From Myxococcota bacterium (GTDB lineage: Bacteria; Myxococcota_A; Bradymonadia; UBA7976; UBA1532): a DNA stretch of 39,443 nt. The position numbers and the translations under genes are program-made. The notes below the pieces were generated by a model. It was given only the letters and a program-made list of their open reading frames with translations, made no database searches and was not told the DNA's origin. The stretch spans positions 1-39,443 of the forward strand of contig CAUJDF010000055.1 of assembly GCA_963169045.1 (NCBI GenBank), in the 5' to 3' direction. Of the stretch, positions 7,050-27,498 are shown one piece after another (position 1 is the first letter of the stretch; each line of letters opens with the position of its first letter).

Positions 7050-9368
7050 TCAGTTGGCGCGCGCCGCGGCGAAGGCATGGACGAAGTGGGCCTGCCGCGC
7101 GCTCTCGACGGCGCGCGGGCCGCGGGCGCGGCGGACCGCGGCGATCGCCGCCTCGGGCGCGAGGCCGTGGGCGACGAGCACGCAGGCGGCGAGGGTGCCG
7201 GAGCGGCCGAGGCCGCCCATGCAGTGGACGACGACGTCGTGGCCGGCGCGCAGCGCGGCGTCGATCTCGGCGACGAGCGTCTCGGCGCGGTGCGGCGTGG
7301 GGACGCCCTGGTCGAGCACCGGCGCGTGCACGAAGCGCAGGCCGGCGGCCTCGGCGGCGTCCGGCAGGTCCTCGGCGCCGGCCCAGCGCAGCTCGTCGTC
7401 GGGGACCATGCAGACGAGCGTCTCGGCGCCGGCGGCCTCGAGCGCGGCGAGGTCGTCGGCGAGGACGCGGCCGCGGTCGCGGCGCCCCGGGCAGATCGTG
7501 AGGCCGAGCCGCCCTGGCGTGGCCGCGTCGACCCAGTCCACGCGCAGCTCGAGGCTCTCGCGCGCCGCCCGGGTCACGTCCTCGGCGTGGCCGCACGCCG
7601 CCGCCAGGGCCCAGCGCTTCTGCCAGGGGCTCGACTCGTCGAACGACAGCGTGTGCACCGCGTAACGCAAGAGCGCCACCGAGAGCTGCACGGGGTTGCG
7701 GTCCGTCCGGCACAGGCGGCCGCCGATGCCGCGCAGCGTCCGCAGTGTGTGCCAGGCGCGCACGAGGGCGGGGCGGGTGATGCCATCGGGCACGTCGGGC
7801 AGCGGTTCGCGCAGATCGCGGACGGCGCGCAGCGCGCGCGTGAGGCGGAGCGCCTCTTCGAGCGTCGCCTCGTCGTCGACCGGCGTGAAGATGTAGAGCA
7901 GGTCGTTCTCGAGCTTGGCCACGTCCTTGAGCACGTGGCCGCGGTGCGCGTGGAAGAAGTCGATCAGCCAGACGTTGTCGCGCCCGTCGAGCAGGATGTT
8001 CGCCCCGTTCAGATCGCCGTGCACGTACGACACGAAGTGGCTCTCGCCCGGGGCGCGCGGCAACGCGTCGAGGTCCTCGTAGAACCGGGCGACGTGCTCG
8101 GCCTCGTAGCCGCCGGGGAAGGCGAGCGTCTCTCCGCTCTGACCCGTCAGCTCGAGGGCGCGGGCGCGCACGCCCGGCGCGAAGCGCGCGGCGAAGCCGT
8201 AGTAGTCGAGCAGCGCCAGGGGCTCGAACTGCGCCGCCGAGTGGAAGCGGCCGAGCACCTCGTCGAACACACGCTCGAGGACCTCGTCGACGGCGCTCTG
8301 TTCGCCGCCCGAGGCATACAGCGACTTGAAGGTGCGCACGCTGCCGGCGCCCATCGCCGCGTAGGCGTACTTGATGCCGGCGCGCTCGCCGAGATCGGCG
8401 AAGCCACGCACGCTCGGCGCGTGGTTGCCGAGGATGCCTTCGACGCGCTCGAACGCGACGCGCTCCGCGGCCACCGTCGCGCGCGGCCCCAGCTTCGCGA
8501 CCGACGGCGCCTGCTCGTGGCCGAGCGCGTCCCATCCACGCACGCGGAGCACCGTGGCGCCGGAGAAGCCGCCGCCGAGCGGCGCCAGCTCGAGCTTCGC
8601 GCTGTCGCGGTACAGATGGGCGAGGATGTGTTCGTCCGTCTCGGCGAGCGGGGTCGGGTCGCCCTTCCAGGCGAGCGCGGGGCGCGCGCCGCCGCGCACC
8701 GGCGGCAGGCGGATGCCATCGGCCTCGGGGCGCAGCCAGGCGGCGAAGTCGCCCACGCCGTCGAGCACGCGCACGCCGAGGATGCGCCGCAGCTGCTCGA
8801 GCGCGTTGAAGTGCTGGGCGCGCGACGCGCTCGCCGTGAGCGCGCTGCACGTCGCGAGCTCCGTGATGCCGCAGCGCGTCGCCAGCTCGTACAGCAGGAA
8901 CGTGACCTTGGCTTCGGTCCACACGCCGACGACGCCCACCCGCAGCGGCGCGCCGACCCGCGCCCGGATGGCGTCGAGGCGGGCGGCGAGGTCGGTGCCC
9001 TCGAAATCGTTCAGGCCGAGGGCGTCGACGTACGCCTCGTTGGGGCGCAGCCCGGCGAGGTCGAGGACGAGCTCGGCGCCGGGCGTGCCGCGCAGGCAGT
9101 GCGGGCCGAACTGGGCGAGGTGCGCCTGCTGCGCCGGGTCGGCCGGGTCGTGCCAGTCGCGGACGTGCAGGACGTCGAGCGCGTCTTGCGGCTGCGCGCG
9201 CGTCCACGCGGCGAGCTGCGCCACGGGGCCGGTCGCCGGGTCGGCGCCGAGCAGCCGCAGCGCCTCGGCGCGGCCCACGTGGAGCGCGTTCGGCAGCGGC
9301 GCGTGGGCCGCGGGCGGTTCGACGAAGTCGCGCTGCAGACACTGCGTGATGAGGACCGGGTACGCCAT
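7050..9368 (-). CDS. Three-domain fusion: isochorismatase-like hydrolase, APH/choline-kinase-like kinase, dual-specificity phosphatase
   Basis: A 772-residue cytoplasmic protein with three enzyme-like domains. Residues 1-212 resemble the isochorismatase/nicotinamidase fold: a CLQRDF segment near 10-15, DWHDP at 71-75, and C174 in CSALTAS at the place of the usual Cys nucleophile. The usual N-terminal catalytic Asp is Cys or Gln here, so activity may be changed. Residues 225-600 look like an aminoglycoside/choline-kinase-type phosphotransferase: GGGFSG at 265-270, K292, HGDLNGANIL at 450-459 (catalytic D452) and LIDFF with metal-binding D470. Residues 608-772 form a dual-specificity phosphatase with P-loop HCMGGLGRSG (C716, R722) and a likely general-acid D686. 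Kinase-like domains of this sort occur in predicted bacterial conflict or signalling systems (the TCAD9 group, from memory); that link is unverified. The ATG at 9368 starts the conserved first strand. Substrates are unknown. Confidence 0.85.
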   Translation of the reverse strand: MAYPVLITQCLQRDFVEPPAAHAPLPNALHVGRAEALRLLGADPATGPVAQLAAWTRAQPQDALDVLHVRDWHDPADPAQQAHLAQFGPHCLRGTPGAELVLDLAGLRPNEAYVDALGLNDFEGTDLAARLDAIRARVGAPLRVGVVGVWTEAKVTFLLYELATRCGITELATCSALTASASRAQHFNALEQLRRILGVRVLDGVGDFAAWLRPEADGIRLPPVRGGARPALAWKGDPTPLAETDEHILAHLYRDSAKLELAPLGGGFSGATVLRVRGWDALGHEQAPSVAKLGPRATVAAERVAFERVEGILGNHAPSVRGFADLGERAGIKYAYAAMGAGSVRTFKSLYASGGEQSAVDEVLERVFDEVLGRFHSAAQFEPLALLDYYGFAARFAPGVRARALELTGQSGETLAFPGGYEAEHVARFYEDLDALPRAPGESHFVSYVHGDLNGANILLDGRDNVWLIDFFHAHRGHVLKDVAKLENDLLYIFTPVDDEATLEEALRLTRALRAVRDLREPLPDVPDGITRPALVRAWHTLRTLRGIGGRLCRTDRNPVQLSVALLRYAVHTLSFDESSPWQKRWALAAACGHAEDVTRAARESLELRVDWVDAATPGRLGLTICPGRRDRGRVLADDLAALEAAGAETLVCMVPDDELRWAGAEDLPDAAEAAGLRFVHAPVLDQGVPTPHRAETLVAEIDAALRAGHDVVVHCMGGLGRSGTLAACVLVAHGLAPEAAIAAVRRARGPRAVESARQAHFVHAFAAARAN

Positions 9369-9406: not shown

Positions 9407-10507
9407 CTAACCCAGTGATTGCGCGATGAATTCGAGGGCGTCGTCGAGGCGGCCGCCGGTGGCGAGCGCGGCGGGCGTCGTCGCGACGAGCTCGATGCCT
9501 TCGGGGTGGCCGGTGAGCGCGAGGAAGAAGGGCTGGGCGGGGTTGCCGGGCGGGATGAAGAAGGCGCGGCGCGCGCGGAAGCCGCCGCCGTGGCAGCCGC
9601 CGAGGTCGAGGCGGCCGAGGTTGGAGACGGCGGCGGAGGCGCCGTAGCGGCCGGTGCGCAGCGCGCGCGCGGCGCCGCGGCGGCCCGCCCAGGCCATGAC
9701 CGCGAGCGGGACGCCGCGGAGGGGGGCGGCGGCGCGCACGAAGGCGCCCGCCTGCGGGACGAGCGCGGTGAGCGCGCGCGCGACGTCGTCCACGGCGTCT
9801 TCGGGCGTCACCGGCACGAACACCATGCCGGTGAGGTTGGCCGTGGAGCGCACGCCATGGGCGCCCCGCAGATCGACGGGCACGCCGATGCGGACGGGCG
9901 CGCCGTGCCGCAGCGCGAGCGCCCCGACGGCGTGGACGACGCGCGGCAGCACGCGCGAGGCGCCGGCGGGGACGGTGCGGCGCCGCCACGTGACGCCCTC
10001 GCCCGCGGCCGCCGCCCCGGTCGGCGCGGGGCACTCGTCGCGCCGGCGCGCCCCGGGCCCGGGGCGCGCCAGGTCGAGGTCCGTCACGGCGGCGTCGTGC
10101 GAAGGCACGGCCTCGCCGCGCAGGGCGCGGAACACATCGTCGACCCAGACGAGCGTGCCGCGGCCGTCCATCACCGCGTGGTGGCTGCGAAAGACGACGC
10201 GCCCCGGCGCGAGCAGGATCTCGCGCGTGGGGCCGCCCGGCGGGAGCGGGTCGCGCAGGAACGGCGCGCCCTCCGGCCCGCGGCCGTCCCATGCGCCGGC
10301 ATCGACGACGCGCACCGGCGTCGCCGGCCCCGGCGCCCAGCGGCAGCCGCCGAGCACCCCGCGCAGCACGAGGCCGCGCCCCGCCGCCGCGCGCCAGGCC
10401 GCCTCGTCGGGCATGCCATCACCCTCGAGCACGAGCTGGTTCACGAACGGCGGGCACAGACGGTCCGCCACCAGCCACACCCGCTCGACGGGCGACAGCC
10501 GCCTCAC
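9407..10507 (-). CDS. Condensation-domain-type acyltransferase (HHxxxDG family)
   Basis: A 366-residue protein with the HH-x3-DG active-site motif at residues 109-115 (HHAVMDG). This motif is shared by NRPS condensation domains, WS/DGAT wax-ester synthases and PapA-type acyltransferases. Later family features are a DLRG segment, NLTGMVFVPV and a SNLGRLDL strand that resembles the second half of the condensation fold. The GTG start at 10505-10507 overlaps the TGA stop of the upstream MFS gene as GTGA, so the two are translationally coupled. No adenylation or carrier domain is nearby. A free-standing acyl or ester transfer to a small alcohol, lipid or amine is therefore more likely than peptide synthesis. 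The substrate is unknown. Confidence 0.75.
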   Translation of the reverse strand: MRRLSPVERVWLVADRLCPPFVNQLVLEGDGMPDEAAWRAAAGRGLVLRGVLGGCRWAPGPATPVRVVDAGAWDGRGPEGAPFLRDPLPPGGPTREILLAPGRVVFRSHHAVMDGRGTLVWVDDVFRALRGEAVPSHDAAVTDLDLARPGPGARRRDECPAPTGAAAAGEGVTWRRRTVPAGASRVLPRVVHAVGALALRHGAPVRIGVPVDLRGAHGVRSTANLTGMVFVPVTPEDAVDDVARALTALVPQAGAFVRAAAPLRGVPLAVMAWAGRRGAARALRTGRYGASAAVSNLGRLDLGGCHGGGFRARRAFFIPPGNPAQPFFLALTGHPEGIELVATTPAALATGGRLDDALEFIAQSLG

Positions 10508-11976
10508 GCCTGCCTCGTCTCCGGGTGCGCGTGCTCCGCGGCGGCGCCGCGCGGGAAGAGTAGCGCGATGAGCAGGCCGAGCGCCCCGACGATCGCGAAG
10601 CCGACGAACACCGTGTGCAGGCCGGCGCCGAGCGCGTCGGTGAGCGCGCGCAGCGTGTCGGGCGGCAGCGCCGCGCGCCGGTCCGGGTCGAGGACGGCGT
10701 CGAGGCTCGCCGCGTCGCCGAGCACCGGCGCGAGGCGCGCGTTCAGGAGCGCGCCGAAGACCGCGACCGCCACCGCGCCGCCGATCGTGCGGAAGAACTG
10801 CGACACGCTCGTCGCCATGCCACGCTGCCTCCATGGCACCGCGTTCTGCACGGCGACGAGGTACGGCGTCGACATGAGACCGAGGCCGAGGCCGCACAGC
10901 CCCATGCTGGTGAGGACGACGAGGCGTCCGCCGCCGCCCGCGGCGAGGACGAGCGTGCCGAGCAGCGCCGCGGCGCCGCCGGCGACGATCAGCGGCCGGT
11001 AGCCCAGGCGCAGGAGGGCGCGCCCCGAGTAGAGCGCGGCGATCGGCCACGTCACGAGCATGGGCGTCAGCGCCGCGCCGGCCTCGGTGGCGCTCCCGCC
11101 GAGCACGCCCTGCGCGTACATCGGGACGTAGGCCGTGGCGGCGAGCAGCAGCGTGCCGACCGCGACGCAGCCGGCGTTCGACACCGCGATGAGGCGCTGC
11201 CGGAAGAGCGCCGCCGGGAACATCGGCTCCTTCGCCCGGCGCTCCTGCCGTGCGAACAGCGCGAAGCAGACCGCCGATCCCGCGAACGCCGCGAAGGTCC
11301 GCGGGTCCCCGAAGCCCCAGTGCTCGCTGCCTTCGAGCAGGCCCGCGAGCAGCAGCGCGATGGCGAGGGTCAGCGCGGTGGTGCCGAGGACGTCGAGCGA
11401 ATGCTCGCGCCGCGTGCCGCGCTCGTCGAGGAAGCGCCGCAGCAGCGCGACCGATCCCACGCCGAACGGGATGGTCGCGTAGAAGACCCACCGCCACGAC
11501 AACAGATCGGTGACGAGACCGCCGAGCGCGGGCCCGAGCACGCTCGACAGACCCCAGACGCCCGAGAACAGACCCTGCACGCGGCCGCGCTCCTCGAGGC
11601 TGTAGATGTCGCCGAGGATGGTCGCCGTCAGCGGCATCACGCCGCCGGCGCCGAGGCCCTGCAACGCGCGGAAGGCGATCATCTGTTCGAGCGACGCGGA
11701 CGCGCCGGAGAGCGCCGTGCCGAGGAGGAACAGCGCCATGGCCACGAGGTACACCCGCTGTCGGCCGTACAGATCGGCGAGCTTGCCGAAGAGCGGCACC
11801 GTCGTCGTCGAGGTGAGCAGGTAGGCCGAGAATACCCAGCTGTAGCGCGAGACGCCGCCGAGGTCGGCGATGGCGGTGGGCATCGCGGTCGCGACCGCCG
11901 TCGCCTCGAGCGCCGCGACGAACGCCCCGAGGACCAGCGCCGCCGTCACCCACCGCCGCTCGCGTCCCGGCCGCAC
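10504..11976 (-). CDS. MFS drug/metabolite exporter, DHA2 (14-TMS, EmrB/QacA) type
   Basis: A 490-residue inner-membrane protein with about 14 hydrophobic segments, the usual length for drug:H+ antiporters of the DHA2 subfamily. Family motifs include an N-terminal AALEATAVATAMPT (equivalent of LDxTIVNVALP), the loop motif GKLADLYGRQR after helix 2 and GVMPL in helix 4. It is the first gene of a two-gene unit with the acyltransferase that overlaps its stop. The exported compound may be the acyltransferase product, but this is inference. The 87-bp gap to the divergent plus-strand gene at 12064 must hold the promoter. Confidence 0.9.
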   Translation of the reverse strand: MRPGRERRWVTAALVLGAFVAALEATAVATAMPTAIADLGGVSRYSWVFSAYLLTSTTTVPLFGKLADLYGRQRVYLVAMALFLLGTALSGASASLEQMIAFRALQGLGAGGVMPLTATILGDIYSLEERGRVQGLFSGVWGLSSVLGPALGGLVTDLLSWRWVFYATIPFGVGSVALLRRFLDERGTRREHSLDVLGTTALTLAIALLLAGLLEGSEHWGFGDPRTFAAFAGSAVCFALFARQERRAKEPMFPAALFRQRLIAVSNAGCVAVGTLLLAATAYVPMYAQGVLGGSATEAGAALTPMLVTWPIAALYSGRALLRLGYRPLIVAGGAAALLGTLVLAAGGGGRLVVLTSMGLCGLGLGLMSTPYLVAVQNAVPWRQRGMATSVSQFFRTIGGAVAVAVFGALLNARLAPVLGDAASLDAVLDPDRRAALPPDTLRALTDALGAGLHTVFVGFAIVGALGLLIALLFPRGAAAEHAHPETRQA

Positions 11977-14735: not shown

Positions 14736-16082
14736 TCACGCGTGGAGCTGGAACGCGAGCTCGAGCGCCTGGCTGGCGTTGAGGCGGGGATCGCAGAGCG
14801 TCTCGTACAGGCCCTCGGCCAGGTGCGCTTCGGTGATCTGCTGGTCGCCGCCGAGGCACTCGACGACGTCCTTGCCGGTCAGCTCGAAGTGCACGCCGCC
14901 GGGGTACGTGCCTTCGGCGCGGTGCACGTCGATGAAGGCGCGCACCTCGCCGAGCACGTGGCCGAACAGACGGGTCTTGTAGCCGTTGGCGGCCGTCACG
15001 GTGTTGCCGTGCATGGGATCGCAGCACCAGAGCACGTGTCGGCCCTCGGCGCGGATGGCGCGCACGAGCGCCGGCAGCCGCTCGGCGACGCGGTCGTGGC
15101 CGTGGCGCGTGATCAGCGTCAGGCGGCCCGGCTCGTTGGCCGGGTTCAGCGCGTCGACGAGGCGCAGCAGCTGGTCCGGCGTCATCGACGGCCCGCACTT
15201 CAGGCCGACGGGGTTGTGGACGCCGCGCAGGAACTCCACGTGGGCGCCCTCGGGGTCGCGCGTGCGCTCGCCGATCCACAGCATGTGCGCCGAGCAGTCG
15301 TACCAGTCGCCGCCGTAGCCGGGCCGCGCCGTCGTGCTGTCGCGCCGCGTCAGCGCCTGCTCGTAGGGCAACAACAGCGCCTCGTGGGACGTGTAGAAGT
15401 CGACCTCGCGGATCTGCGGCGACGTCTCGCTCGTCACGCCGCAGGCGGCCATGAACGCCAGCGCCTCGTCGAGCTTGCTGGCGATGGCCTCGTAGCGCTG
15501 CGTCTGCGGGCTGTTGCGCACGAACTCGAGGTTCCAGGCGTGCACCTGGTGCAGGTCGGCGTAACCGCCCTGGGCGAACGCGCGGATGAGGTTCAGCGTC
15601 GACGCCGCCTGCACGTACGCGCGCAGCATCCGCGCCGGATCGGGCGTGCGCGCCTCGGGCGTGAACTCGGTGCCGTTGATGATGTCGCCGCGGTACGCCG
15701 GCAGCCGCGCGCCATCGCGCTCTTCGAAGTCGCTCGAGCGCGGCTTGGCGAACTGGCCGGCGATGCGGCCGACCTTCACCACCGGCAGCTTCTGCTGGAA
15801 CGTCAGGATGACCGCCATCTGCAGCAGCACGCGGAACGTGTCGCGGATGGTGTCGGCGCGGAACTCCTGGAAGCTCTCGGCGCAGTCGCCGCCCTGGAGC
15901 AGGAACGCGCGACCCTCGGCGGCGCGCGCCAGCTTCGCCTTGAGCGCGCGCGCCTCGCCGGCGAAGACCAGCGGCGGGTAACCCGCGAGCGTCGCCTCCA
16001 CCGCGGCCAGGTGGGCCGCATCAGGGTAGTCGGGCAACTGCTGCGCCTGGCGTTCGCGCCAGCTCGCCGGCGTCCAGTTCAT
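14736..16082 (-). CDS. aroG: Class II 3-deoxy-7-phosphoheptulonate (DAHP) synthase
   Basis: A 448-residue enzyme that condenses phosphoenolpyruvate and erythrose 4-phosphate, the entry step of the shikimate pathway. It is the plant/Mycobacterium-type class II enzyme: [12 protein letters not shown] near residues 78-89, [14 protein letters not shown], the PEP-site KCGPSMTP segment, ITRHGHDR and the metal ligand His and Glu region HFELTGKDV. The N-terminus is short, so the extra regulatory helices of the M. tuberculosis enzyme look reduced. The ATG at 16080-16082 overlaps the TGA of the upstream chorismate mutase gene (ATGA). In Mycobacterium and Corynebacterium the class II enzyme binds and activates a separate small chorismate mutase, so the coupled order here suggests a similar complex. 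It is the last gene of the run. Confidence 0.95.
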
Positions 16083-16348
16083 GCTTCCTCCCCCTGGATT
16101 CGCTGGGCTTCGCGGTGCAAGAGGGCCAGCAGCGCCTCGCAGAAGCGGGCGTCGACGCCGAGCGCCGCAGCCCACTCCAGACGCTCGCGGACGAGCGCCG
16201 CCCACCGCTCCGGCTGCACGACGGGCTCCCCACGCTGCCGCTTGAGCGCGCCGATCTCGGCCACCGCCGCGAAGCGGTCGGCGAGCGCCTCGAGCAGCCG
16301 GCGGTCCGCCGCGTCGATGCGCGCCCGCAAGGCTTCGAGATCGTTCAT
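16079..16348 (-). CDS. aroQ: Monofunctional AroQ-class chorismate mutase
   Basis: An 89-residue all-helical enzyme that converts chorismate to prephenate. It aligns with the E. coli P-protein mutase domain at a constant offset of three. R8, R25, K36, R48 and Q85 match the active-site R11, R28, K39, R51 and Q88. The residue equivalent to E52 is Trp and that for D48 is Gln. The size fits the free-standing AroQ-delta type of Mycobacterium, which is active only with class II DAHP synthase. Its start overlaps the tyrA stop and its stop overlaps the DAHP synthase start, both as ATGA. Here aroQ denotes chorismate mutase, not dehydroquinase. Confidence 0.92.
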
Positions 16349-17205
16349 GAAGTCGGTCCCCTCCCGATGCGTTCCAGCACGGGCCGGATGCGGTTCGCCT
16401 CGCGCATGAACGACTCGAGGCCCTCGAAGTCGCGGCGCGCGAGGCGGTGCTGGAACTCGCGCAGCTGCGCGATGTAGGCCGCGAGCGCCGCCGACACGTG
16501 GTCCGCGTTCTGCTCGAAGATGGGGCCCCACATCGCCGGCGAGCTCTTGGCGAGGCGCACCGTGGACGCGAAGCCGCCGCTCGCGAGGTCGAAGATGGTG
16601 CCCGCGTCCTTCTCCATCGCCAGCACGGCGGTGGCGAGCGCGAACGAGGACACGTGCGAGAGGTGGCTGACGTAGGCCACGTGCAGGTCGTGGTCGGCGG
16701 CGCCCATCGACGTCAGCCGCATGCCGAGCGCGCGGAACATGGACTCGACGCGGGCGAGGTGCTCCACGCCGCTGCGCTCGCGGTCGCACACGATGGCGAC
16801 CTTGTCGGCGAAGAGGCCGGGGTGGGCGGCGGCGGGGCCGGAGTGCTCGGTGCCCGCCATCGGGTGCGCGGCCACGTAGCGGTGGCGCTGGGGGTGGGTC
16901 TCGACGGCGCGCCCGATGTCGGCCTTCGTCGAGCCCATGTCGGTGACGGTGCCGCCGGCGACGTCGAGCACGCGCGGCAACAGCTCGGCGATGGCGGTCA
17001 CGGGGACGGCGAGCACCACGAGATCCGCCTCGGCGGCGGCCTGCTCGAGCGGCGCCACCGCATCGACGAGCCCGAGGTCCAGCGCCTGCCGCGCGTGGGC
17101 GTCGTTGGCCTCGACGCCGACGAGGCGCGTCGCGAACCCGGCGCGGCGCAGATCGAGCGCCGCGGAGCCGCCGATCAGCCCCAGTCCCACCATCGCGATC
17201 TTCAT
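16345..17205 (-). CDS. tyrA: Prephenate dehydrogenase
   Basis: A 286-residue NAD(P)-dependent enzyme that converts prephenate to 4-hydroxyphenylpyruvate for tyrosine. The dinucleotide motif GLGLIGGS lies at residues 7-14. [19 protein letters not shown] and the helical dimer-domain segment [13 protein letters not shown] are typical of the family. There is no fused chorismate mutase and no ACT domain, so tyrosine feedback would have to act through the catalytic domain. It overlaps the aminotransferase upstream and the chorismate mutase downstream by ATGA. Confidence 0.95.
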
Positions 17206-18371
17206 GATGCCTTCACGAACGCTTCGACCCGGCCCGCGGCTTCCCGCAGGCGCTCCACCGGCGCGCACAGCGAGGCGCGGACGTAGCGGCGGCCGTTCTC
17301 GCCGAACACCTGGCCGGGCACCAGGAAGACCTCGGCGCGGGCGAGGAGCTCGTCGAGCCAGCCGGTGACGTCGGCGATGCCTTCGGGCGCGCGCGCCCAC
17401 ACGAAGAGGCCGACCTGGGCGCGGTCGTAGTCGCAGCCGAGGGCGTCGAAGAGGCGCCAGACCTCGGCGCGGCGCGCGGCGTACGCGGCGTTCCGCGCGT
17501 CGTGCCAGCCCTGCGGCGCGGCGAGCGCGGCGGTGGCGCCGGCCTGCACGGCGAGGAACATCCCCGAGTCGACGTTGCTCTTCACCTGCAGCGCGGCGTC
17601 GACGACCTCGCGCGAGGCCACGAGCAGGCCCACGCGCCAGCCGGCGAGGTTGAAGCTCTTGCTCAGCGAGTTGAGCTCGGCGCACGCGGCGAACGCGCCG
17701 GGCGCCGCCATCAGGCTGCGCGGCGCGTCGCGGTTCAAAACGAGGCCGTACGGATTGTCGTTGCAGATCAGGATGTTGCGGCGCGTTGCGAAGCCGGCGA
17801 GCGCGGCGAACAGGTCGGCGGTGCCGCGCGCGCCCGTCGGCATGTGCGGGTAGTTGACCCACATCAGCTTGCAGCCGGTCAGATCCTGGCGCTCGAGCGC
17901 GTCGAGGTCGGGCAGCCAGTCGGGCGCCCGCAGGTCGTAGCGGATCACGCGCGCGCCGAGCAGCTTCGCAACGGCGGCGTACGCCGGGTAGCCGGGGTCG
18001 GGCACGAGCACCGCGTCGCCCGGATCGAGCAGCGCCATCGACAGGTAGAGCACGCCCTCCTTCGAGCCGAGCAGCGGCAGCACCTGCGCCTCGGCGTCCG
18101 GCGCCACGCCGTAGGTGCGGCGGTACCAGTCGGCCATGGCGCGCCGCAGCTCGGGCGTGCCGCGGTACGACGCGTACCCGTGCACCGCGGGATCGCGCAG
18201 CCGCGCCGCCGCGGCCTCCACGGCCTCGGCCGGAGGCGGCAGGTCCGGGCTGCCGATGCCGAGATTGATCACATCGCGGCCCTGCGCGCGCATCTGCCGC
18301 ACGACGTCGAGCTTGCGCGAGAACCAGTACTCGCCGACGTCGTGGAGCCGCGCGGCGAACTTCAGTCCCAT
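17202..18371 (-). CDS. Class I PLP-dependent aminotransferase (aspartate/aromatic or LL-DAP type)
   Basis: A 389-residue fold-type I aminotransferase. The Schiff-base lysine is K238 in SLSKSFNLAGWRVG, with D205 and Y208 (NDNPYG) as cofactor contacts. The usual NNPTG motif is HMPTG at about 176-180, a variant that I associate with the LL-diaminopimelate/aspartate aminotransferase branch. Placed between pheA and tyrA, it most likely aminates phenylpyruvate and 4-hydroxyphenylpyruvate in the final step to Phe and Tyr. A role with prephenate (arogenate route) or aspartate cannot be excluded. It overlaps pheA by 10 nt and tyrA by ATGA. Confidence 0.88.
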   Translation of the reverse strand: MGLKFAARLHDVGEYWFSRKLDVVRQMRAQGRDVINLGIGSPDLPPPAEAVEAAAARLRDPAVHGYASYRGTPELRRAMADWYRRTYGVAPDAEAQVLPLLGSKEGVLYLSMALLDPGDAVLVPDPGYPAYAAVAKLLGARVIRYDLRAPDWLPDLDALERQDLTGCKLMWVNYPHMPTGARGTADLFAALAGFATRRNILICNDNPYGLVLNRDAPRSLMAAPGAFAACAELNSLSKSFNLAGWRVGLLVASREVVDAALQVKSNVDSGMFLAVQAGATAALAAPQGWHDARNAAYAARRAEVWRLFDALGCDYDRAQVGLFVWARAPEGIADVTGWLDELLARAEVFLVPGQVFGENGRRYVRASLCAPVERLREAAGRVEAFVKAS

Positions 18372-19198
18372 ATCCGCTCCGCGCGCGCGTACTCGCCGAA
18401 GTGCGTGATGCGCAGGGCCCGCCCCACGAGCCGCGCCATCGCCTCGCGGTAGCGCGCCGGGTCGGACCACTCCACGTCGACGTGGAACGAGTACTGGTAT
18501 GGCTTGCCGACGATGGGGATCGACTGGATCTTGGTCAGGTTCAGGTCGCAGTCGCGGAACACCTCGAGCACCTCCACGAGGCTGCCGGGGCGGTGCGGCG
18601 TCTCGAAGCGCAGCGACGCCTTGTTCGCGCCGGCGGGCACGTCGGCCGAGTCGCGCCGGCCGACGACGAGGAAGCGCGTGTAGTTGAGGCGGTTGGTCTC
18701 GATGCCCGCGTGCAGGACCTCGAGGCCGTAGACGTCGGCGGCGAGGCGCGGCGCGACGGCGGCGTGCCCCGAGAGCCGCTCGGCGTGGATGAGCCGCGCG
18801 CTGTCGGCGGTGTCGGAGGCCTCGACGAGCCGCGCCCGCGGCAGCTCGCGGTGCAGGAACTCCTCGGACTGGATGAGCGCCATCGGGTGCGAGAGCACCG
18901 TGTGGACGTCCGCGGTGGCCTGCCCCGGCAGCGCCATCAGGCAGAGCTCGATGCGCAGGTACGTCTCGCCGAGGATGCGGAAGTCGTGGCGCTCGAGCAG
19001 CGAGTAGTTCGGCAGGATGCTGCCGGCGAGCGCGTTCTCGATGGCCATGACCGCCACGTCGGCCTCGCCCGCGGCGAGCGCGCGGCCGAGCAGCGGGAAG
19101 GACGCGCACTCGACGAGCTCCAGCGCCCGGCCCGGGAAGAGCGCCCGCGCGGCCTGGTCGTGGAAGGAGGCGCGCACGCCCTGGATGGCCACCCTCAC
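18362..19198 (-). CDS. pheA: Prephenate dehydratase with C-terminal ACT domain
   Basis: A 278-residue enzyme converting prephenate to phenylpyruvate. The catalytic domain (1-180) has the start [15 protein letters not shown], the IENALAGS segment and the TRF motif in NYTRFLVVG. The ACT domain begins near 192. Its phenylalanine-binding motifs differ from the common forms: GALV is GSLV and ESRP is QSIP. No chorismate mutase domain is fused. The GTG start at 19196-19198 overlaps the aroC stop as GTGA, which decides the start. Altered ACT motifs could mean weaker or different feedback. Confidence 0.93.
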
Positions 19199-20271
19199 GG
19201 CAGCCTCGCCACCCGGTCGCGCAGCCAGTGGTCGGCGAGCACGAGCGCCGCCATCGCCTCGACGATGGGCACGGCGCGCGGGACCACGCACGGGTCGTGG
19301 CGGCCGCGCCCGGTGAGCGTCGTCTCGCGGCCCTCGGCGTCGACGGTCGCCTGCGGCTTCATGATCGTCGCCACCGGCTTGAAGGCGACGCGAAAGATAA
19401 TGTCCATGCCATTGCTGATGCCACCCTGGATGCCGCCCGAGTGGTTGGTGCGCGTGCGTATCCCCTCGTCGGAACTGAAGAATTCGTCGTTGTGTTCCGA
19501 GCCGCGCAGGCGGGTGCCCGCGAAGCCCGAGCCATACTCGAATCCCTTCACGGCGTTGATCGAGAGCATCGCACGGCCGAGGTCGGCGTGGAGCTTGTCG
19601 AAGACGGGCTCGCCGAGGCCGGCGGGGACGCCGCGCGCCACGCCGGCCACGACGCCGCCGAGCGTGTCGCCGTCCTTCCGCGCGGCGTCGATGGCGGCGA
19701 TCATGCGCGCGGCGACCGCCGGGTCGGGGCAGCGCACGATGTTCGACTCCGTCGCCGACGGATCGGCGGGCGTCCCGGCGTAGTCGACGTCGCCCACCTG
19801 CGCGACCCAGGCGTGCACCGCGATGCCCTGCGTGCGCAGCAGCAGCTTGGCGACGGCGCCGGCAAGCACGCGCGCCGCGGTCTCGCGCGCCGACGAGCGC
19901 CCGCCGCCGCGCGGGTCCCGGTGGCCGTACTTGGCCTGGTACGTGTAGTCGGCGTGCGAGGGCCGGAACGCCTGCGCGATCTCGGCGTAGTCGCGCGGGC
20001 GCTGGTCCTCGTTGGCGAGGATCGCGGCGATGGGCGTGCCGGTCGTGCGCCCCTCGTGCACCCCCGAGAGGAAACGCGCGCGGTCGCTCTCCCGGCGCTG
20101 CGTCGTGATCCTCGACTGCCCGGGGCGGCGCCGGTCGAGCTCCGCCTGCACGAAGTCGAGGTCGAGCGCGAGGCCCGCCGGGCAGCCGTCGATGACGACG
20201 CCGAGCGCCTCGCCGTGGGACTCGCCGAAGGTCGTCACGCGGAAGAGCGTCCCGAACGTGTTACCGGCCAT
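19195..20271 (-). CDS. aroC: Chorismate synthase
   Basis: A 358-residue FMN-dependent enzyme, normal length, that makes chorismate from EPSP. Family signatures include [18 protein letters not shown] at the start, [14 protein letters not shown] and the FMN-site [15 protein letters not shown] later RGSEHNDEF segment and a [11 protein letters not shown] stretch near the end are also present. The ATG at 20269-20271 overlaps the aroB stop by 11 nt. No dedicated flavin reductase domain is attached. It is in the middle of the aromatic run. Confidence 0.97.
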
Positions 20272-21343
20272 CGGCGGCCTCCCGCAGCAGGTCCCAGGCG
20301 GCCGCGAGGTCGTCGCGCGTCACCTCGGGGTCGAGCACGACCTCGCCCGGCCGCCGCAGCAGCACGAAGCGCGTGCGGCCGCCCTTCGACTTCTTGTCGC
20401 GCGTCGTCTTCTCGAAGAGCGCGTCGCGCGCGTCGAGCAGCGGCGGCACGTCGAGCCGCGCCAGCCGCGCGTCGAGCGGCGGCCGGTCCGCCGCGGCCAT
20501 GTGCCCGCGCACCACGGAGAGCGCGAGGGCGAAGCGCATGCCCCACACGATGGCCTCGCCGTGCCGGTACCCCGCGTAGCCCGTCGCCGCCTCGAGCGCG
20601 TGGCCGAGCGTGTGCCCGAAGTTCAGCGCCTCGCGCACGCCGGTGCGGTCGAGCTCGTCCTGCTCGACGGCGCGGCACTTCCAGCGCAGCGAGGTCTCGA
20701 TGGCCCCGGCCAGCGTCGGCGGGTCGAGCGCCAGGCAGGCGTCGAGGGCGAGGCGCTCGAAGAAGGGCGGATCGTAGACCAGGCCGTACTTCAGCACCTC
20801 GCCGAGGCCGGAGACGAGCTCGCGGCGCGGCAGCGTCGCGAGCAGCGCCGTGTCGCAGACGACGAGCGCCGGCTGGTGGAAGGCGCCGATGAGGTTCTTG
20901 CCGGCCTCGTGGTTGATCGCGGTCTTGCCGCCGACGGCGCTGTCGACCTGGGCGAGCAGCGTCGTCGGCACGCCCACCCAGTCGATGCCGCGCAGGTACG
21001 TCGCGGCGACGAAGCCCGCCGCGTCGCCGACCGTCCCGCCGCCGACGGCCACGAGCAGGGCGTCGCGGTCGGCCTTGCGCGCGAGCAGCTCGCCGTAGAG
21101 CGCGTTCACCGCCGCCGGCGTCTTGAGCCCCTCGCCGGCCTCGACGGGCAGCGCGTCGGCGGCCCAGCCGGCCGCCGCGAGCCCGTCCATCACCGCCGTG
21201 CGGGCGTGGGGGCGCGCGACGTCGCAGACGACGAAGGCGCGGCGCGGGCCGTCGAGGAGGCGCGGGATCTCCGCGGCGACGCCGGCCCCGATGTGGATCG
21301 GGTGGTCGCGTCCGCGCAGGCAGAGGTGCAGGGCGCGGCTCAC
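20261..21343 (-). CDS. aroB: 3-dehydroquinate synthase
   Basis: A 360-residue NAD- and metal-dependent enzyme that cyclises DAHP to 3-dehydroquinate. Typical motifs are [13 protein letters not shown] (NAD site), [29 protein letters not shown], the metal ligand GEVLKYGL, and the ligand histidines in [10 protein letters not shown] and YRHGEAI. The GTG start at 21341-21343 overlaps the stop of the aroE-aroK gene as GTGA. Its stop lies inside the start of aroC. Confidence 0.97.
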
Positions 21344-22641
21344 GGCGCCACCGCCCGCGCGACGGCCTCGGCCACCTGCTCGGGGGCGAGGTCGTCGGTG
21401 TCGATGCGGACGTCGGCCTGCGCGTAGCCGGGGGCGCGCTGCGCCAGAAGGTCGGCGAGCGGCGCCGTGCCGAGCAGCGGGCGGTCCTCTGCGTTGGCGA
21501 GGCGGCGCTCGATCGTCTCGGGCCGCGCCGCGAGGTGGACGAGCGTGCCGGCGCGCTTCACCAGCGCGACGTTCTCCGGGTCGAGGAGGGCGCCGCCGCC
21601 GAGCGCCACGACCGCGTCCGGCGTCAGCGCCGCCCGCTCGATGACCGTCCGCTCGAGACGGCGGAACTCCGCCTCGCCGGCCCGGGCGAAGAGGTCGCGC
21701 ACGCTCATGGCCGCCACGTCCCCGACGCGCGCGTCGGTGTCGACGAACGCGCGGCCGAGGCGCGCGGCCAGGGCGAGGCCCGCCGTCGTCTTGCCGGCGC
21801 CCATGAAGCCGCAGAGGAAGAGGGGCGCCGACCCCAGCGTGCGGCGGATGGCCATCTCGAGGTCGCGGTGCACGGGCGGGACGTCGCCGAACCACAGCCC
21901 CCACGTCGCGAGCGCCTGGTGGACGAGCATGGTCAGCCCGTACACCGGCGAGTAGCCGTGACGGCCGGCCTCCCGCAGGAACGTGGTGCGCTCGGGGGTG
22001 TAGACGACGTCGAAGGCGGCGGCCGAGAGCGCCGGATGGGGGAAGGCGAAGAAGCCGCGCGGCGCGTCGGCGCCGCCCATGCCGAGCGACGTGGCGTTGA
22101 CCAGCAGCGTGGTCTCGGTCCACGGTGGGCCGACGTCGAAGCGCGTCTCCGGGAACAGCGGGGCGAAGTGCGCCACGAGCGCCGCCGCGCGCGCCACGTC
22201 GCGGTTCGCGACGTGCACGAAGTCCGCGCCCGTCTCGCCGAGGGCGCACAGGACGGCGCGCGCCGCGCCGCCGGCGCCCCAGACCTGCACCGTCGTCCGG
22301 TCGCGCCAGCCCAGCGCCGCCCGCACCGCCGCCACGTCCGTGTTGTGACCGCGCAGGCGGCCGTCGCGCGCGACGACCGCGTTCACGGCGCCCACGGCGC
22401 GCGCGGCCGGCGACAGCTCGTCGAGCAGCGGGACGATGGCCTCCTTGTGCGGCAGCGTGACGTTCATCCCGACGAACGCCGGGTTCGCGCGCGCGGCGGC
22501 GACGAACGCCGCGAGCTCGCCGGGCGCGACCTCGTGCGCGCGATAGTCGAGGTCCACGCCGAGCCGCTCGCGCAGCCACGCGAAGATGGCCGGCGAGCGC
22601 GAGTGCGCGACCGGCTGCCCGATGACGAACGCTTCACGCAT
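21340..22641 (-). CDS. aroE-aroK: Bifunctional shikimate dehydrogenase - shikimate kinase
   Basis: A 433-residue fusion covering two consecutive pathway steps. Residues 1-262 are shikimate dehydrogenase: SRSPAIF near 14-20, catalytic K66 in NVTLPHKE, N100-T101-D102, and the NADP-site GAGGAARA at 122-129. Residues 270-433 are shikimate kinase: P-loop GFMGAGKTT at 278-286, the metal/shikimate motif DTD at 301-303, a GGG in the shikimate site near 348-350 and the lid arginine in EDRPLL. The linker is only about ten residues. The ATG at 22639-22641 has GGAAGG 8 nt upstream. An upstream in-frame GTG at 22723-22725 would add 28 residues that look non-coding. It overlaps aroB by GTGA. Fusions of E then K are uncommon as far as I know. 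Confidence 0.94.
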   Translation of the reverse strand: MREAFVIGQPVAHSRSPAIFAWLRERLGVDLDYRAHEVAPGELAAFVAAARANPAFVGMNVTLPHKEAIVPLLDELSPAARAVGAVNAVVARDGRLRGHNTDVAAVRAALGWRDRTTVQVWGAGGAARAVLCALGETGADFVHVANRDVARAAALVAHFAPLFPETRFDVGPPWTETTLLVNATSLGMGGADAPRGFFAFPHPALSAAAFDVVYTPERTTFLREAGRHGYSPVYGLTMLVHQALATWGLWFGDVPPVHRDLEMAIRRTLGSAPLFLCGFMGAGKTTAGLALAARLGRAFVDTDARVGDVAAMSVRDLFARAGEAEFRRLERTVIERAALTPDAVVALGGGALLDPENVALVKRAGTLVHLAARPETIERRLANAEDRPLLGTAPLADLLAQRAPGYAQADVRIDTDDLAPEQVAEAVARAVAP

Positions 22642-22741
22642 GCGCGTCGCCTTCCCGGCGTCGGCCGGGTCGAGGCCGGGGACGCGCGGCGGCGCGGCCC
22701 GAGCCGAGGTGGTCACGGTCTGCACCGCGCGAGGGCGTCAT
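22634..22741 (-). CDS. Possible 35-codon ORF bridging aroA and aroE-aroK
   Basis: This ORF starts with ATG 7 nt after the aroA stop and ends in a TGA that overlaps the aroE-aroK start by 8 nt. The peptide is Arg/Gly/Pro-rich (MTPSRGADRDHLGSG...) and matches nothing I know. Its main interest is position: it would carry ribosomes across one of only two sizeable gaps in the operon. Arg-rich frames arise by chance in DNA this G+C-rich, so it may not be a functional protein. Confidence 0.2.
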   Translation of the reverse strand: MTPSRGADRDHLGSGRAAARPRPRPGRRREGDAHA

Positions 22742-22748
22742 CGGCCGC

Positions 22749-24029
22749 TCACGTCGTGAGGTCGCGCAGGGTGTCGAAGAACGCCGGGTAGGAGATGCCG
22801 ACGCACTCCGACCCGTGCACGACGGTCTCCCCGTCGGCGACGAGCGCCGCGATGCTGAACGCCATGGCGATGCGGTGGTCGTGGAAGCTGTCGATCGCCG
22901 CGCCGCGCAGCGCGCCGCCGCCCTCGACGACGAAGCCGTCGGGGCGCGTCTCGATGCGGCCGCCCATCGCGCGCAGGTTCGTGGCCACGGCCTCGATGCG
23001 GTCCGTCTCCTTCACGCGCAGCTCCTCGGCGCCCGACACGCTCGTCTCGCCCTCGGCCTGGCTGGCGAGCACGGCGAGCATCGGCAGCTCGTCGATGAGC
23101 GAGGGGACCTCGTCGGGGGCGACGACGACGCCGCGCAGCGCGCCCTGGCGGACCACCATGCGGCCCACGGGCTCGGGATGCGCCTCGGTGACCTCGACGC
23201 GGACGTCGGCGCCCATGCGCTCGAGGACGCGCAGGAAGCCGGTGCGCGTCGGGTTGAGCGACACGCGCTCGAGCTCGACATGGCCGCCGGGGACGAGGCA
23301 CGCGGCGGCCATCCAGAAGGCGGCGGTCGACGGATCGCCGGGCACGTGGACGCGGGCCGCGCGCAGGCGCTGGTCGCCGGGCACCTCGACCCTGCCCGGC
23401 GCCACCTCGACGGCGCCGCCGAAGTGCGGCAGCAGGCGCTCGGTGTGGTCGCGCGAGCCGACCTCGCCGGTGACGCGCGTGCGGCCGGACGCGGAGATGC
23501 CCGCCAGCAGGATGGCCGTCTTGATCTGGGCGCTGGCGATCTTCAGCGCGTAGTCGATGCCGTGCAGGCGGGTGCCGTGGACCGTCAGGGGGGCGCAGTC
23601 GCCGTTCGTCAGGTCGAAACGCGCGCCCATGCGCACGAGCGGCTCGGCGACGCGCCGCATGGGCCGGCGCACGAGCGAGGCGTCGCCGGTGAGCGTGGCC
23701 GCGACGCCGCGCCCGGCGAGCACGCCCATGAGCACGCGCATCGTGGTGCCGGAGTTGCCGCAGTCGAGGACGCCCTCGGGCGTCGAGAAGCCGCGGCCGC
23801 CGATCCCGTCGACGAACGTGGAGGCGCCCTCGCGCGCGATCGCGACGCCGAGCGCGCGCAGGCAGCGCGCGGTCGACTGCACGTCGCCGCTCTCGAGCAG
23901 GTCGACGACCTCGGTGCGTCCTTCGGCGAGCGCGCCGAGGATGAGGCCGCGGTGGGAGATCGACTTGTCGCCGGGCAGGCGCGGGCGGCCGCCGAAGCGG
24001 GCCGCGCGGGAGAGGGTGGTGGTGGGCAT
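22749..24029 (-). CDS. aroA: 3-phosphoshikimate 1-carboxyvinyltransferase (EPSP synthase)
   Basis: A 426-residue enzyme joining PEP and shikimate 3-phosphate. The start LPGDKSISHRGLILGALAEG and the GNSGTTMRVLMG segment resemble the Bacillus/CP4 group (class II-like) more than the E. coli enzyme, which has LPGSKSVSNR and GNAGTAMR. The Gly whose change to Ala gives glyphosate tolerance in CP4 is still Gly here. Catalytic elements SLIDELPMLAVLA and EELRVKETDRI plus HDHRIAMAF near the end are intact. The gene starts 8 nt after the trpA stop, joining the trp block to the common-pathway block. Confidence 0.96.
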   Translation of the reverse strand: MPTTTLSRAARFGGRPRLPGDKSISHRGLILGALAEGRTEVVDLLESGDVQSTARCLRALGVAIAREGASTFVDGIGGRGFSTPEGVLDCGNSGTTMRVLMGVLAGRGVAATLTGDASLVRRPMRRVAEPLVRMGARFDLTNGDCAPLTVHGTRLHGIDYALKIASAQIKTAILLAGISASGRTRVTGEVGSRDHTERLLPHFGGAVEVAPGRVEVPGDQRLRAARVHVPGDPSTAAFWMAAACLVPGGHVELERVSLNPTRTGFLRVLERMGADVRVEVTEAHPEPVGRMVVRQGALRGVVVAPDEVPSLIDELPMLAVLASQAEGETSVSGAEELRVKETDRIEAVATNLRAMGGRIETRPDGFVVEGGGALRGAAIDSFHDHRIAMAFSIAALVADGETVVHGSECVGISYPAFFDTLRDLTT

Positions 24030-24037
24030 CACGGTTC

Positions 24038-24783
24038 CTACGGGCGCTTGAACCCCGCGAGCGAGCGTACCATTTCGCGAATTCGGCCGACCGCGTCGCC
24101 GCCCTCCGCGATCGCGCGGACGAAGGCGCTCCCGACGACGACGCCGTCGGCGAAGCGGGCGACCTCGGCCGCCTGCTCGGGGGTGGAGATGCCGAATCCG
24201 ACGGCGATCGGCTTGTCGGTGACCTCGCGCAGACGCGCCACCTCCGCCGCCAGCGTGGACGACAGCGCGGCGCGCTCGCCCGTCACGCCGGCCCGCGAGA
24301 CGTAATACACGAAGCCGGTGGAGGCCTCGGCGATGCGCCGCAGACGCGCCGGCGAGGTGGTCGGCGAGGCGAGGAAGACCGTCTTCACCCCCGCCTCGGC
24401 CATGGCCTCGCGGTGCTCGTCGGCCTCTTCGGGCGGCAGGTCGACGACGAGGGCGGCGTCGACGCCGTGCGCGCGGGCGGCGGCGGCGAAGCGGCGAAAA
24501 CCGAGGCGGAACACGGGGTTGAGGTACGTGAAGAGCACGAGGCCGAGCCGCGGGTGGCGCGACTTGATGCGGGCGGCGAGCGCGAGCACGTCGGTCAGCG
24601 TGACGTGCGTCGCGGCGCGCTCCGAGGCGGCCTGGATGACGGGGCCGTCGGCGATGGCGTCCGAGAAGGGGACGCCGAGCTCGACGACGTCCGCGTCCTC
24701 CTCGGCGAGGGCGTCGACGAAGCGCTCCGTGTCGGCGAGTGAGGGGTCGCCGGCGACGACGAAGGGGATGAAGGCGCCGCGGG

Positions 24784-24790
<7 letters not shown>
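24038..24790 (-). CDS. trpA: Tryptophan synthase alpha subunit
   Basis: A 250-residue TIM-barrel subunit that cleaves indole-glycerol phosphate. The catalytic Glu and Asp lie in ELGVPFSD and AIADGP; the common PFSDP is PFSDA here. Other motifs are [25 protein letters not shown] and the phosphate-site GFGIST with VVGSAFV. The ATG at 24788-24790 overlaps the trpB stop by 7 nt. It should form the usual alpha-beta complex with the TrpB encoded upstream. Confidence 0.96.
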
Positions 24791-25940
<1,150 letters not shown>

Positions 25941-25944
<4 letters not shown>

Positions 25945-26069
25945 GGGGCCTCCTGACGGTGCGGGTCGAAGGAGCGAAACCGCGGCGCGGCGCGATCGAT
26001 GCCCGGGTCCACGCGGCCGCCCGTCGCCGGGCGTCGGCGAGGGGACCGCTTCGCGTCGCGATGGCTCAC
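25941..26069 (-). CDS. Possible 42-codon ORF bridging trpF and trpB
   Basis: A GTG at 26067-26069 overlaps the trpF TGA as GTGA, and the ORF ends in a TGA that overlaps the trpB GTG in the same way. It therefore fills the 121-bp trpF-trpB gap exactly, with the same junction used elsewhere in the operon. The peptide is Arg/Pro-rich ([19 protein letters not shown]...) and is not recognised. Part of it derives from a repeat of the trpF 3' end. It could be a coupling ORF, a decayed gene end or chance. Confidence 0.3.
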
Positions 26070-26087
26070 GCGGCCTCCCGTCGCAGG
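26010..26087. repeat. 21-bp direct repeat at the trpF 3' end
   Basis: The segment at 26067-26087, which encodes the last residues and stop of trpF on the minus strand, recurs at 26010-26030 with 19 of 21 bases identical. The period is 57 bp, a whole number of codons, so the copy stays in phase within the small bridging ORF. Confidence 0.6.
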
Positions 26088-26740
26088 GGGCCGAAGAAGC
26101 GGGCCAGCCTCGCGGCGCACTTGAGGCCGGGGGCGGTCTCGACGGCGCTCGACAGGTCGAGGGCCCAGGGGCGGACCGCGGTGATCGCGGCGCGCGCGTT
26201 GTCGGCGTTCAGGCCGCCGGCCAGGATCACGCGGCCGGGGACGGTGGCGGCGAGCCCCCAGTCCGCGCGGCGGCCGGTGCCGCCGTGATGCGCGGGGTCC
26301 CAGGCGTCGACGAGGACGGCGTCGCACTCGTAATCGTCGACGCGCAGGTCGGTGGTGGTCCGTGGGCGAAATGCCTTGAAGATCAGCGTGTTCGGGAGCT
26401 GGTCGCGCACGCGGGCGACGTCGGCGGGCGTCTCGTCGCCGTGGAGTTGGACGGCGTCGAGGCCGGCGGCGCGGACCGTGGCGGCCACGGACGCCGGCGG
26501 CGCGTCGACGAACACGCCCACCTTGAGCGGGCCGGGGACGGCGTCGGCGATTCGGCGCGCGGCGTCGGCGGCGACGCACCGCCGGCTCGCCGGGTGGAAG
26601 ACGAAGCCGAGCGCCCAGGCCCCCAGGTCGGCCGCGGCGCGGGCGTCCTCCACCCGCGTCAGCCCGCAGATCTTCACGCGGACCGACGCTGCGCCCGCGG
26701 CGCGGGCGTCCTCGACGCGCACGTGGCCCCGGAGCGTCAC
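26066..26740 (-). CDS. trpF: Phosphoribosylanthranilate isomerase
   Basis: A 224-residue TIM-barrel enzyme of the tryptophan pathway. The catalytic Cys is C25 in VKICGLT. QLHGDE, the VDAW segment and the [10 protein letters not shown] phosphate-site loop are typical. Compared with normal TrpF there is an N-terminal extension of about 20 residues that looks like a copy of the next segment: RVEDARAA occurs at residues 8-15 and again at 29-36. The matching DNA shows a 19-bp exact repeat at 26632-26650 and 26695-26713, period 63. The ATG at 26738-26740 overlaps the trpC stop as ATGA, which favours the extended form. A GTG just before the KICGLT segment could be the ancestral start. Confidence 0.94.
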
Positions 26741-27498
26741 GCGCGCGCCTCCGCGAGCAGGCGCGCGAGCGCCGCGCCGGGGTCGGGCTGCCGCATGAGC
26801 GAGCTGCCGACGAGCATCGCCGCGAAGCCGGCCTGCGCCAGCGCCCGGGCCTCGGCGCCCGTCCGGATGCCGCTCTCGGCGACGAGCGTCGCCCCCGGCG
26901 CCCGCGGGGCGAGGCGGTGCGACGTCGCGAGATCCACCTGAAGCGTCTTCAGGTCGCGGTTGTTGATGCCGACGAGCGTGGCGCCGAACGCGCGCGCGTC
27001 TTCCAGCTCCGCCTCGTCGTGGACCTCGACGAGGACGCCGAGGCCGAGCGCGCGGGCCTCGGCGTACAGCGCGGCGGCGCGCGCGCGGCCGAGCAGCGCC
27101 ACGATGAGCAGCACCGCGTCCGCGCCGGCGTCGAGCGCCTCGTGCAGCTGGTACGCGTCGACGACGAAGTCCTTCATGAGGAGCAGCGCCTCGGGGTACG
27201 CCGCGCGCACGCGCCGCAGGTCGTCGTGGCTGCCGCCGAAGTGCGCGCGCTCGGTGAGCACCGAGATCGCGGTGGCGCCGGCGCGCAGGTAGCCGGCGGC
27301 GATGCCGGCGGGATCCTCGCGCTCGCGCAGCGCGCCCTCCGACGGGCTGCGGAACTTGATCTCGGCGATGGCGCGGAAGGCCCCGCCGAACGCGGCCTCG
27401 AACGGCCCCGGCGGGCGTCGGCGCAGCGCGCCGAGCGGGCGGCGCCGGCGCGCGAGGTCCTCGCGGACGGCGGCGGCGATGCGCTCGAGGACGCTCAT
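26737..27498 (-). CDS. trpC: Indole-3-glycerol-phosphate synthase
   Basis: A 253-residue TIM-barrel enzyme, normal length and not fused to TrpF. AEIKFRSPSEG carries the first catalytic lysine, LLMKDFVVDAYQ the second. VEVHDEAELE, VGINNRDLKTLQVD, VAESGIRT and MLVGSSLMR complete the family pattern. The ATG at 27496-27498 overlaps the trpD stop, and its own stop overlaps trpF, both as ATGA. Confidence 0.97.
   Translation of the reverse strand: MSVLERIAAAVREDLARRRRPLGALRRRPPGPFEAAFGGAFRAIAEIKFRSPSEGALREREDPAGIAAGYLRAGATAISVLTERAHFGGSHDDLRRVRAAYPEALLLMKDFVVDAYQLHEALDAGADAVLLIVALLGRARAAALYAEARALGLGVLVEVHDEAELEDARAFGATLVGINNRDLKTLQVDLATSHRLAPRAPGATLVAESGIRTGAEARALAQAGFAAMLVGSSLMRQPDPGAALARLLAEARA

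Follow-up and report, generated by a model that had tools for sequence, protein, structure and literature searches.

Bifunctional kinase/phosphatases such as PFK-2/FBPase-2 and AceK carry opposed activities in one chain. The protein described here resembles them in this respect, with two opposed active sites that are intact as judged by their residues only. PFK-2/FBPase-2 is, however, built from unrelated domains, and in AceK a single domain does both jobs, whereas the present protein has an extra third domain, which is sensor-like.

Each of its parts also has described relatives: the nicotinamidase PncA of the isochorismatase superfamily, the TCAD9 kinases (PF19974), and the KAP/CDKN3 and archaeal DSP phosphatases (PTP-SAK family). 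While KAP acts in trans on CDK2, the phosphatase studied here is fused to a kinase. A 2020 survey in eLife (PMC7159879) reported a few active APH-type kinases among the effectors of vWA-MoxR-VMAP systems, and a legend in a 2023 Science paper (PMC10910872) ties the name TCAD9 to these systems. Here we analyze a gene in a stretch of 39,443 nucleotides from a Myxococcota bacterium (contig CAUJDF010000055.1), referred to below as the window.

A conserved three-domain protein

An earlier note on this DNA had described a single 772-residue chain with three domains, and the open reading frame, Pfam and structure prediction all confirmed this description (Table 1). The Pfam matches comprise PF00857 isochorismatase (E 2.3e-7, above the cut-off), PF19974 TCAD9 (E 5.2e-59; 200.9 bits against a cut-off of 40) and families of DSP/PTP type, with PTP-SAK at E 1.4e-14 and CDKN3 at E 1.3e-8. 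The AlphaFold2 model of the full protein, generated with 27 aligned rows as input, has a mean pLDDT of 92.1 and a pTM of 0.87. Structure prediction backs the PncA and KAP-type phosphatase folds as well as the APH-type kinase fold that had been proposed for the middle region.

Table 1. Features of the three-domain gene and its product in the window
Feature	Position	Strand	Remarks
Gene for the 772-aa three-domain protein	7050..9368	-	ATG at 9368, stop at 7050-7052
Nicotinamidase (PncA)-fold domain, residues 1-212	8733..9368	-	All catalytic triad residues replaced; putative sensor; PF00857
C10, position of the catalytic Asp (PncA D8)	9339..9341	-	Cys in 25/26 aligned orthologs
D71, H73, H83, H90 within residues 71-90, PncA metal-site residues	9099..9158	-	Kept in 26-27/27
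K154, position of the nucleophilic Cys (PncA C138)	8907..8909	-	Motif GVWT(E/D)AK; Lys in every ortholog examined
C174, nearly invariant, not the hydrolase nucleophile	8847..8849	-	26/27; aligns beyond the nucleophile position
APH-type kinase (TCAD9), residues ~240-605	7554..8651	-	PF19974, AF2 and structural matches
KAP/CDKN3-type dual-specificity phosphatase, residues 608-772	7053..7547	-	Structural match to KAP 1fpz

Full-length relatives with the same domain order were found at 41-67% identity in about ten phyla (Myxococcota, Pseudomonadota, Bacteroidota, Spirochaetota, Chloroflexota, Acidobacteriota, Elusimicrobiota, Armatimonadota and others) and in many independent assemblies. The N-termini of the orthologs align at an identical position, in agreement with the assigned start site. 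Many carriers are metagenome assemblies, but the isolate record of Enhygromyxa salina is also among them. This recurrence rules out a frameshift or an assembly join, the artefacts that the earlier note had considered, and excludes a chance fusion. Our literature searches for the three-domain architecture, for an inactive nicotinamidase sensor or for NAD operons returned nothing relevant, and the protein apparently represents an undescribed, conserved arrangement of known domains.

The distribution of the family is patchy, with carriers in 18 of 331 sampled Myxococcota genomes, 4 of 342 genomes of one gammaproteobacterial order and 1 of 395 genomes in the class to which the Bacteroidota genome G064 belongs. 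In a tree built from the first two domains, copies from distant phyla are intermixed, which suggests lateral transfer, within the limits that the root and the sampling set on this reading. No copy was found in phages and no full-length one in plasmids; the plasmid matches span the phosphatase part only.

A nicotinamidase fold with a replaced catalytic triad

Pfam and structural matches agree on an alpha/beta isochorismatase fold for residues 1-212. The closest structures are the nicotinamidases of Streptococcus pneumoniae (3o93, Z 21.5) and Bacillus subtilis (PncA 6a8l, Z 21.4), with rmsd values of 1.9-2.2 by structural alignment. The likeness to PncA thus extends over the fold (Z 21, rmsd about 2), the metal-site residues and an HC-x(3)-T-x-GAE segment. 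D49, H51, H57 and H71 of the Mycobacterium tuberculosis PncA metal site correspond to D71, H73, H83 and H90.

The catalytic site is different. We assigned the nucleophile position by a phmmer alignment to M. tuberculosis PncA and by comparison with two ordinary nicotinamidase homologs from Bacteroidota genomes (L060 and L061), with G-x-A-T-D-x-C as the motif for comparison. GVWTEAKV of the present protein stands against GLATDYCV of the ordinary homologs, which retain the usual VDVQ, LKG and ATDYCV segments, and this places K154 at the nucleophile position. The earlier note had taken C174 for the kept hydrolase cysteine, but this residue has a non-catalytic location on the strand after the nucleophile position; an active hydrolase using C174 is ruled out by both comparisons. 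On the other hand, its statement that the usual N-terminal Asp is lost was correct, with C10 in its place. The third residue of the triad, a Lys, is absent at the equivalent of PncA position 96. The Asp-Lys-Cys triad is therefore not preserved in the orthologs examined, which include further Myxococcota added to the initial alignment, and the fusion to a TCAD9 kinase is another difference from PncA. Exceptions at the new residues are few: position 10 is Ser in L026, the only row of 26 without Cys, and position 174 is Ser in L027 and L136, with the rest of the domain kept. On its sequence, the first domain is best described as a pseudo-nicotinamidase, with a dead hydrolase site and retained metal-site residues.

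Despite its predicted inactivity, this domain shows the highest conservation, with a mean pairwise identity of 53.8%, compared to 45.8% for the kinase and 44.3% for the phosphatase. Such slow evolution of a dead-enzyme domain argues for a binding function or a new catalytic one. It is expected for a functional binding site, but also fits a new catalytic role. In the genomes examined, the pseudo-nicotinamidase is always joined to the TCAD9 kinase. No close free-standing copy was found among the genomes searched, and the two weak free-standing matches that we inspected are the ordinary family members L060 and L061.

The kinase domain and its TCAD9 relatives

The earlier note had pointed to K292, D452 and D470 as the main catalytic residues of the kinase. 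These residues are invariant in the aligned orthologs, together with E302, R303, E307, H450-G-D452-L-N454 and N457. A model of the kinase alone (residues 224-606) has a pLDDT of 92.2 and matches APH(3')-Ia with a Foldseek E of 6e-8. By structural alignment it matches LxmK (9dk3, Z 16.7), PsiK (8zic, Z 16.6) and, with a Z of 15.6, MTR kinase. These structural matches are nearly tied, and their ranking does not indicate the substrate. The affiliation to TCAD9, which the earlier note had offered tentatively, proved correct by the PF19974 score, and the domain also shares with this family intact catalytic residues and, following the metal-binding Asp, a motif of the D-x(4)-E type.

The other TCAD9 proteins have different partners. 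Six of them, from two Chloroflexota genomes, are joined to a response-regulator receiver domain (three proteins: L107:3667-5253, L110:3164-4777 and L112:1973-3964), a Ser/Thr kinase, EAD7 or AAA, whereas the present protein has a pseudo-nicotinamidase and a phosphatase. The signalling partners place TCAD9 as the output of signalling proteins. Taken together with PMC7159879 and the legend in PMC10910872, they indicate that TCAD9 occupies the place expected of a regulated output kinase, and that of the sensor would here be taken by the pseudo-nicotinamidase.

The phosphatase and its pairing with the kinase

The C-terminal domain superposes on human KAP/CDKN3 (1fpz) with a Z of 26.2 and an rmsd of 1.6 over 167 aligned residues, and matches KAP in phmmer with an E of 5e-14. 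It shares the fold (Z 26, rmsd 1.6), the HCxGGLGRSG-type loop and a general acid 30 residues before the Cys with KAP and the archaeal DSP phosphatases. The loop HCMGGLGRSG provides the nucleophile C716 and R722 of the CX5R motif, and the upstream general acid D686 aligns to the KAP acid loop. C716 and R722 are invariant in all rows having the domain, and the KAP-type fold is predicted, in line with the intact phosphatase loop reported previously. Elsewhere, a KAP-type phosphatase gene lies directly downstream of an ADP-ribosylglycohydrolase gene (L097:5626-7121 and L099:5840-7245), or is followed by a small gene that looks kinase-like by eye and has no Pfam match, a possible phosphatase-kinase pair (L100:5944-7184 and L101:4855-6160).

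The phosphatase changes its genetic form, yet stays with the kinase in most lineages. In four Gammaproteobacteria, a two-domain gene encodes the pseudo-nicotinamidase and the kinase, and the gene directly upstream encodes a phosphatase. By the tree built on the pseudo-nicotinamidase and kinase domains, this split clade falls among the fused forms. In the phosphatase tree, however, its phosphatases cluster with free-standing gammaproteobacterial ones (support 97/92; 98/94 in an earlier tree). A single clade of split and fused phosphatases was rejected by the AU test (p 0.02, an optimistic value because the grouping had already been seen in the first tree). The kinase-phosphatase pairing thus probably arose twice, and the simplest reading is that the split clade lost the fused domain and recruited another phosphatase. 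Such a loss and recruitment would be difficult to account for if the phosphatase had no importance for the kinase. The fused phosphatase can also be lost: it is missing in L034, L027 and L139, and a six-frame search revealed no hidden phosphatase frame adjoining L034 or L027. In these three cases, the kinase can work without a phosphatase, or with one encoded elsewhere.

Gene neighborhoods

No conserved operon was found around the gene; the neighbors vary among Myxococcota, and those in the window are not NAD genes. Just upstream, on the same strand and with short gaps, the window holds an HHxxxDG-type acyltransferase-like protein without a Pfam match and an MFS transporter (9407-11949), which are not conserved in the relatives. 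Judged by eye from the translations, 14736-30387 is occupied by an extended series of genes for the biosynthesis of aromatic amino acids (DAHP synthase-like, chorismate mutase-like, EPSP synthase-like and trp genes).

In other carriers, genes of NAD metabolism lie nearby. A nicotinamide phosphoribosyltransferase (NAMPT) gene occurs 2-13 kb from the gene in one Bacteroidota locus (L029) and three gammaproteobacterial loci (L037, L095 and L102), in genomes G064, G071, G072 and G598, and SPFH, NAD-kinase-like, NrtR, Prs or NadM-Nudix genes accompany it in several of the four. Immediately upstream of the gene in L039 lie genes for NrtR, SPFH, an NAD-kinase-like protein and a PurA-like protein. The three tested carriers in which NAMPT and the gene share a contig contain one NAMPT gene each in 4-7 Mb, which makes proximity within 15 kb in two lineages unlikely by chance, although the query was picked after the proximity had been seen. 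NAMPT is absent from 21 of the 25 carrier genomes. Free-standing relatives of the phosphatase adjoin ADP-ribosylglycohydrolase genes, or are annotated within them, which points in the same direction. A ligand of the NAD type is, for the present, a lead and not a finding.

Several other arrangements were observed. An SPFH/Band-7 gene and a divergent NAD-kinase-like gene recur as a pair, often beside NAMPT or NrtR (L029:10389-12310, L037:13332-15409, L039:3005-4958, L095:15744-17743 and L104:6786-8808). An unusual aldehyde dehydrogenase (ALDH) gene lies directly downstream in three lineages (L026:3549-4538, L028:10307-11908 and L034:10348-11946) and overlaps the end of the three-domain gene in L026 and L028. 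We rejected it as a conserved partner, as only one more of the 25 carrier genomes has a close relative, distant from the gene. In G598, a QatABCD anti-phage locus (L095:10953-15680; PADLOC QatA E 2e-153, with QatB, QatC and a seemingly shortened QatD) is situated between the split phosphatase/pseudo-nicotinamidase-kinase pair and the NAD-salvage cluster. The corresponding gap in L037 has other genes, and may be an insertion hotspot.

DISCUSSION

The sequence and the structural models lead us to propose a ligand-gated kinase/phosphatase switch, in which sensor, writer and eraser share one chain; we give this proposal a probability of about 0.45. The N-terminal domain would descend from a nicotinamidase that lost hydrolysis and kept its fold and metal-site residues, so that it most likely functions by binding a small ligand, for which nicotinamide or another NAD-related molecule is a tentative candidate. 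It would sense rather than catalyze, and occupancy by the ligand would decide how the two enzymes are balanced. The APH-type kinase would phosphorylate a target, perhaps a signalling metabolite or a protein, and the KAP-type phosphatase, or the product of the neighboring gene in one clade, would remove the phosphate from this same target. A more specific version, in which the dead nicotinamidase senses nicotinamide or an NAD-derived molecule and balances kinase and phosphatase on one phosphate mark controlling NAD-linked metabolism, is doubtful at present. The earlier note had already suggested a reversible phosphorylation switch. This part of its reading is favored by the separate upstream phosphatase in the clade lacking the fused one and by the signalling partners of the TCAD9 relatives, while its view of the first domain as the keeper of a hydrolase cysteine does not stand.

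Another explanation would be that the protein modifies a small molecule, for example as a metabolite kinase whose phosphatase serves repair or proofreading, the first domain being a substrate-binding module and not a sensor. The nearest solved kinases mostly act on small molecules (MTR kinase, PsiK, APH, maltokinase and corramycin phosphotransferase), and some neighbors are metabolic (ALDH in L026, L028 and L034; PurA-like in L039). However, we consider this explanation unlikely. The TCAD9 relatives are joined to signalling domains, no biosynthetic or transport context is conserved, and LxmK, the top structural match, is part of a peptide dehydratase complex. Still less probable is a role in biological conflict or anti-phage defence, as part of a system like the vWA-MoxR-VMAP systems that gave TCAD9 its name. 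TCAD9 and EAD7 are found in such systems, the distribution is patchy, and the split pair in G598 adjoins the QatABCD defence locus. On the other hand, no VMAP gene was recognized near the window gene or among the inspected neighbors of its orthologs, and L022 alone has a MoxR-like AAA gene, some kb away. No set of vWA, MoxR ATPase and VMAP was seen among the window genes, which were mostly read by eye, with the nearest three scanned with Pfam. The PADLOC matches of the protein itself are weak (E 0.04 at best), so that it was not assigned to an anti-phage family; no phage copy or full-length plasmid copy was found, and its slowly evolving first domain is unlike many defence sensors.

The conservation of the first domain also bears on an idea that we rate lowest, namely that this domain performs new chemistry around K154, C10 and C174, or acts as a Lys-Cys redox switch, with the kinase and phosphatase acting on its product or reporting the redox state. 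The three residues are conserved together in the slowest-evolving domain, and C10 and K154 replace residues that are near each other in nicotinamidases. Nevertheless, we know of no isochorismatase-family enzyme with a Lys nucleophile, and the Ser residues at position 10 in L026 and at position 174 in L027 and L136, with the rest kept, argue against it.

If the proposed ligand-gated switch is correct, it would add a compact kinase/phosphatase switch to bacterial signalling, and provide an example of a vitamin-salvage enzyme turned into a sensor. TCAD9, known mainly from predicted conflict systems, would gain a testable role as a signal-output kinase. Since one clade has apparently replaced its phosphatase, the hypothesis of kinase-phosphatase coupling is directly testable.
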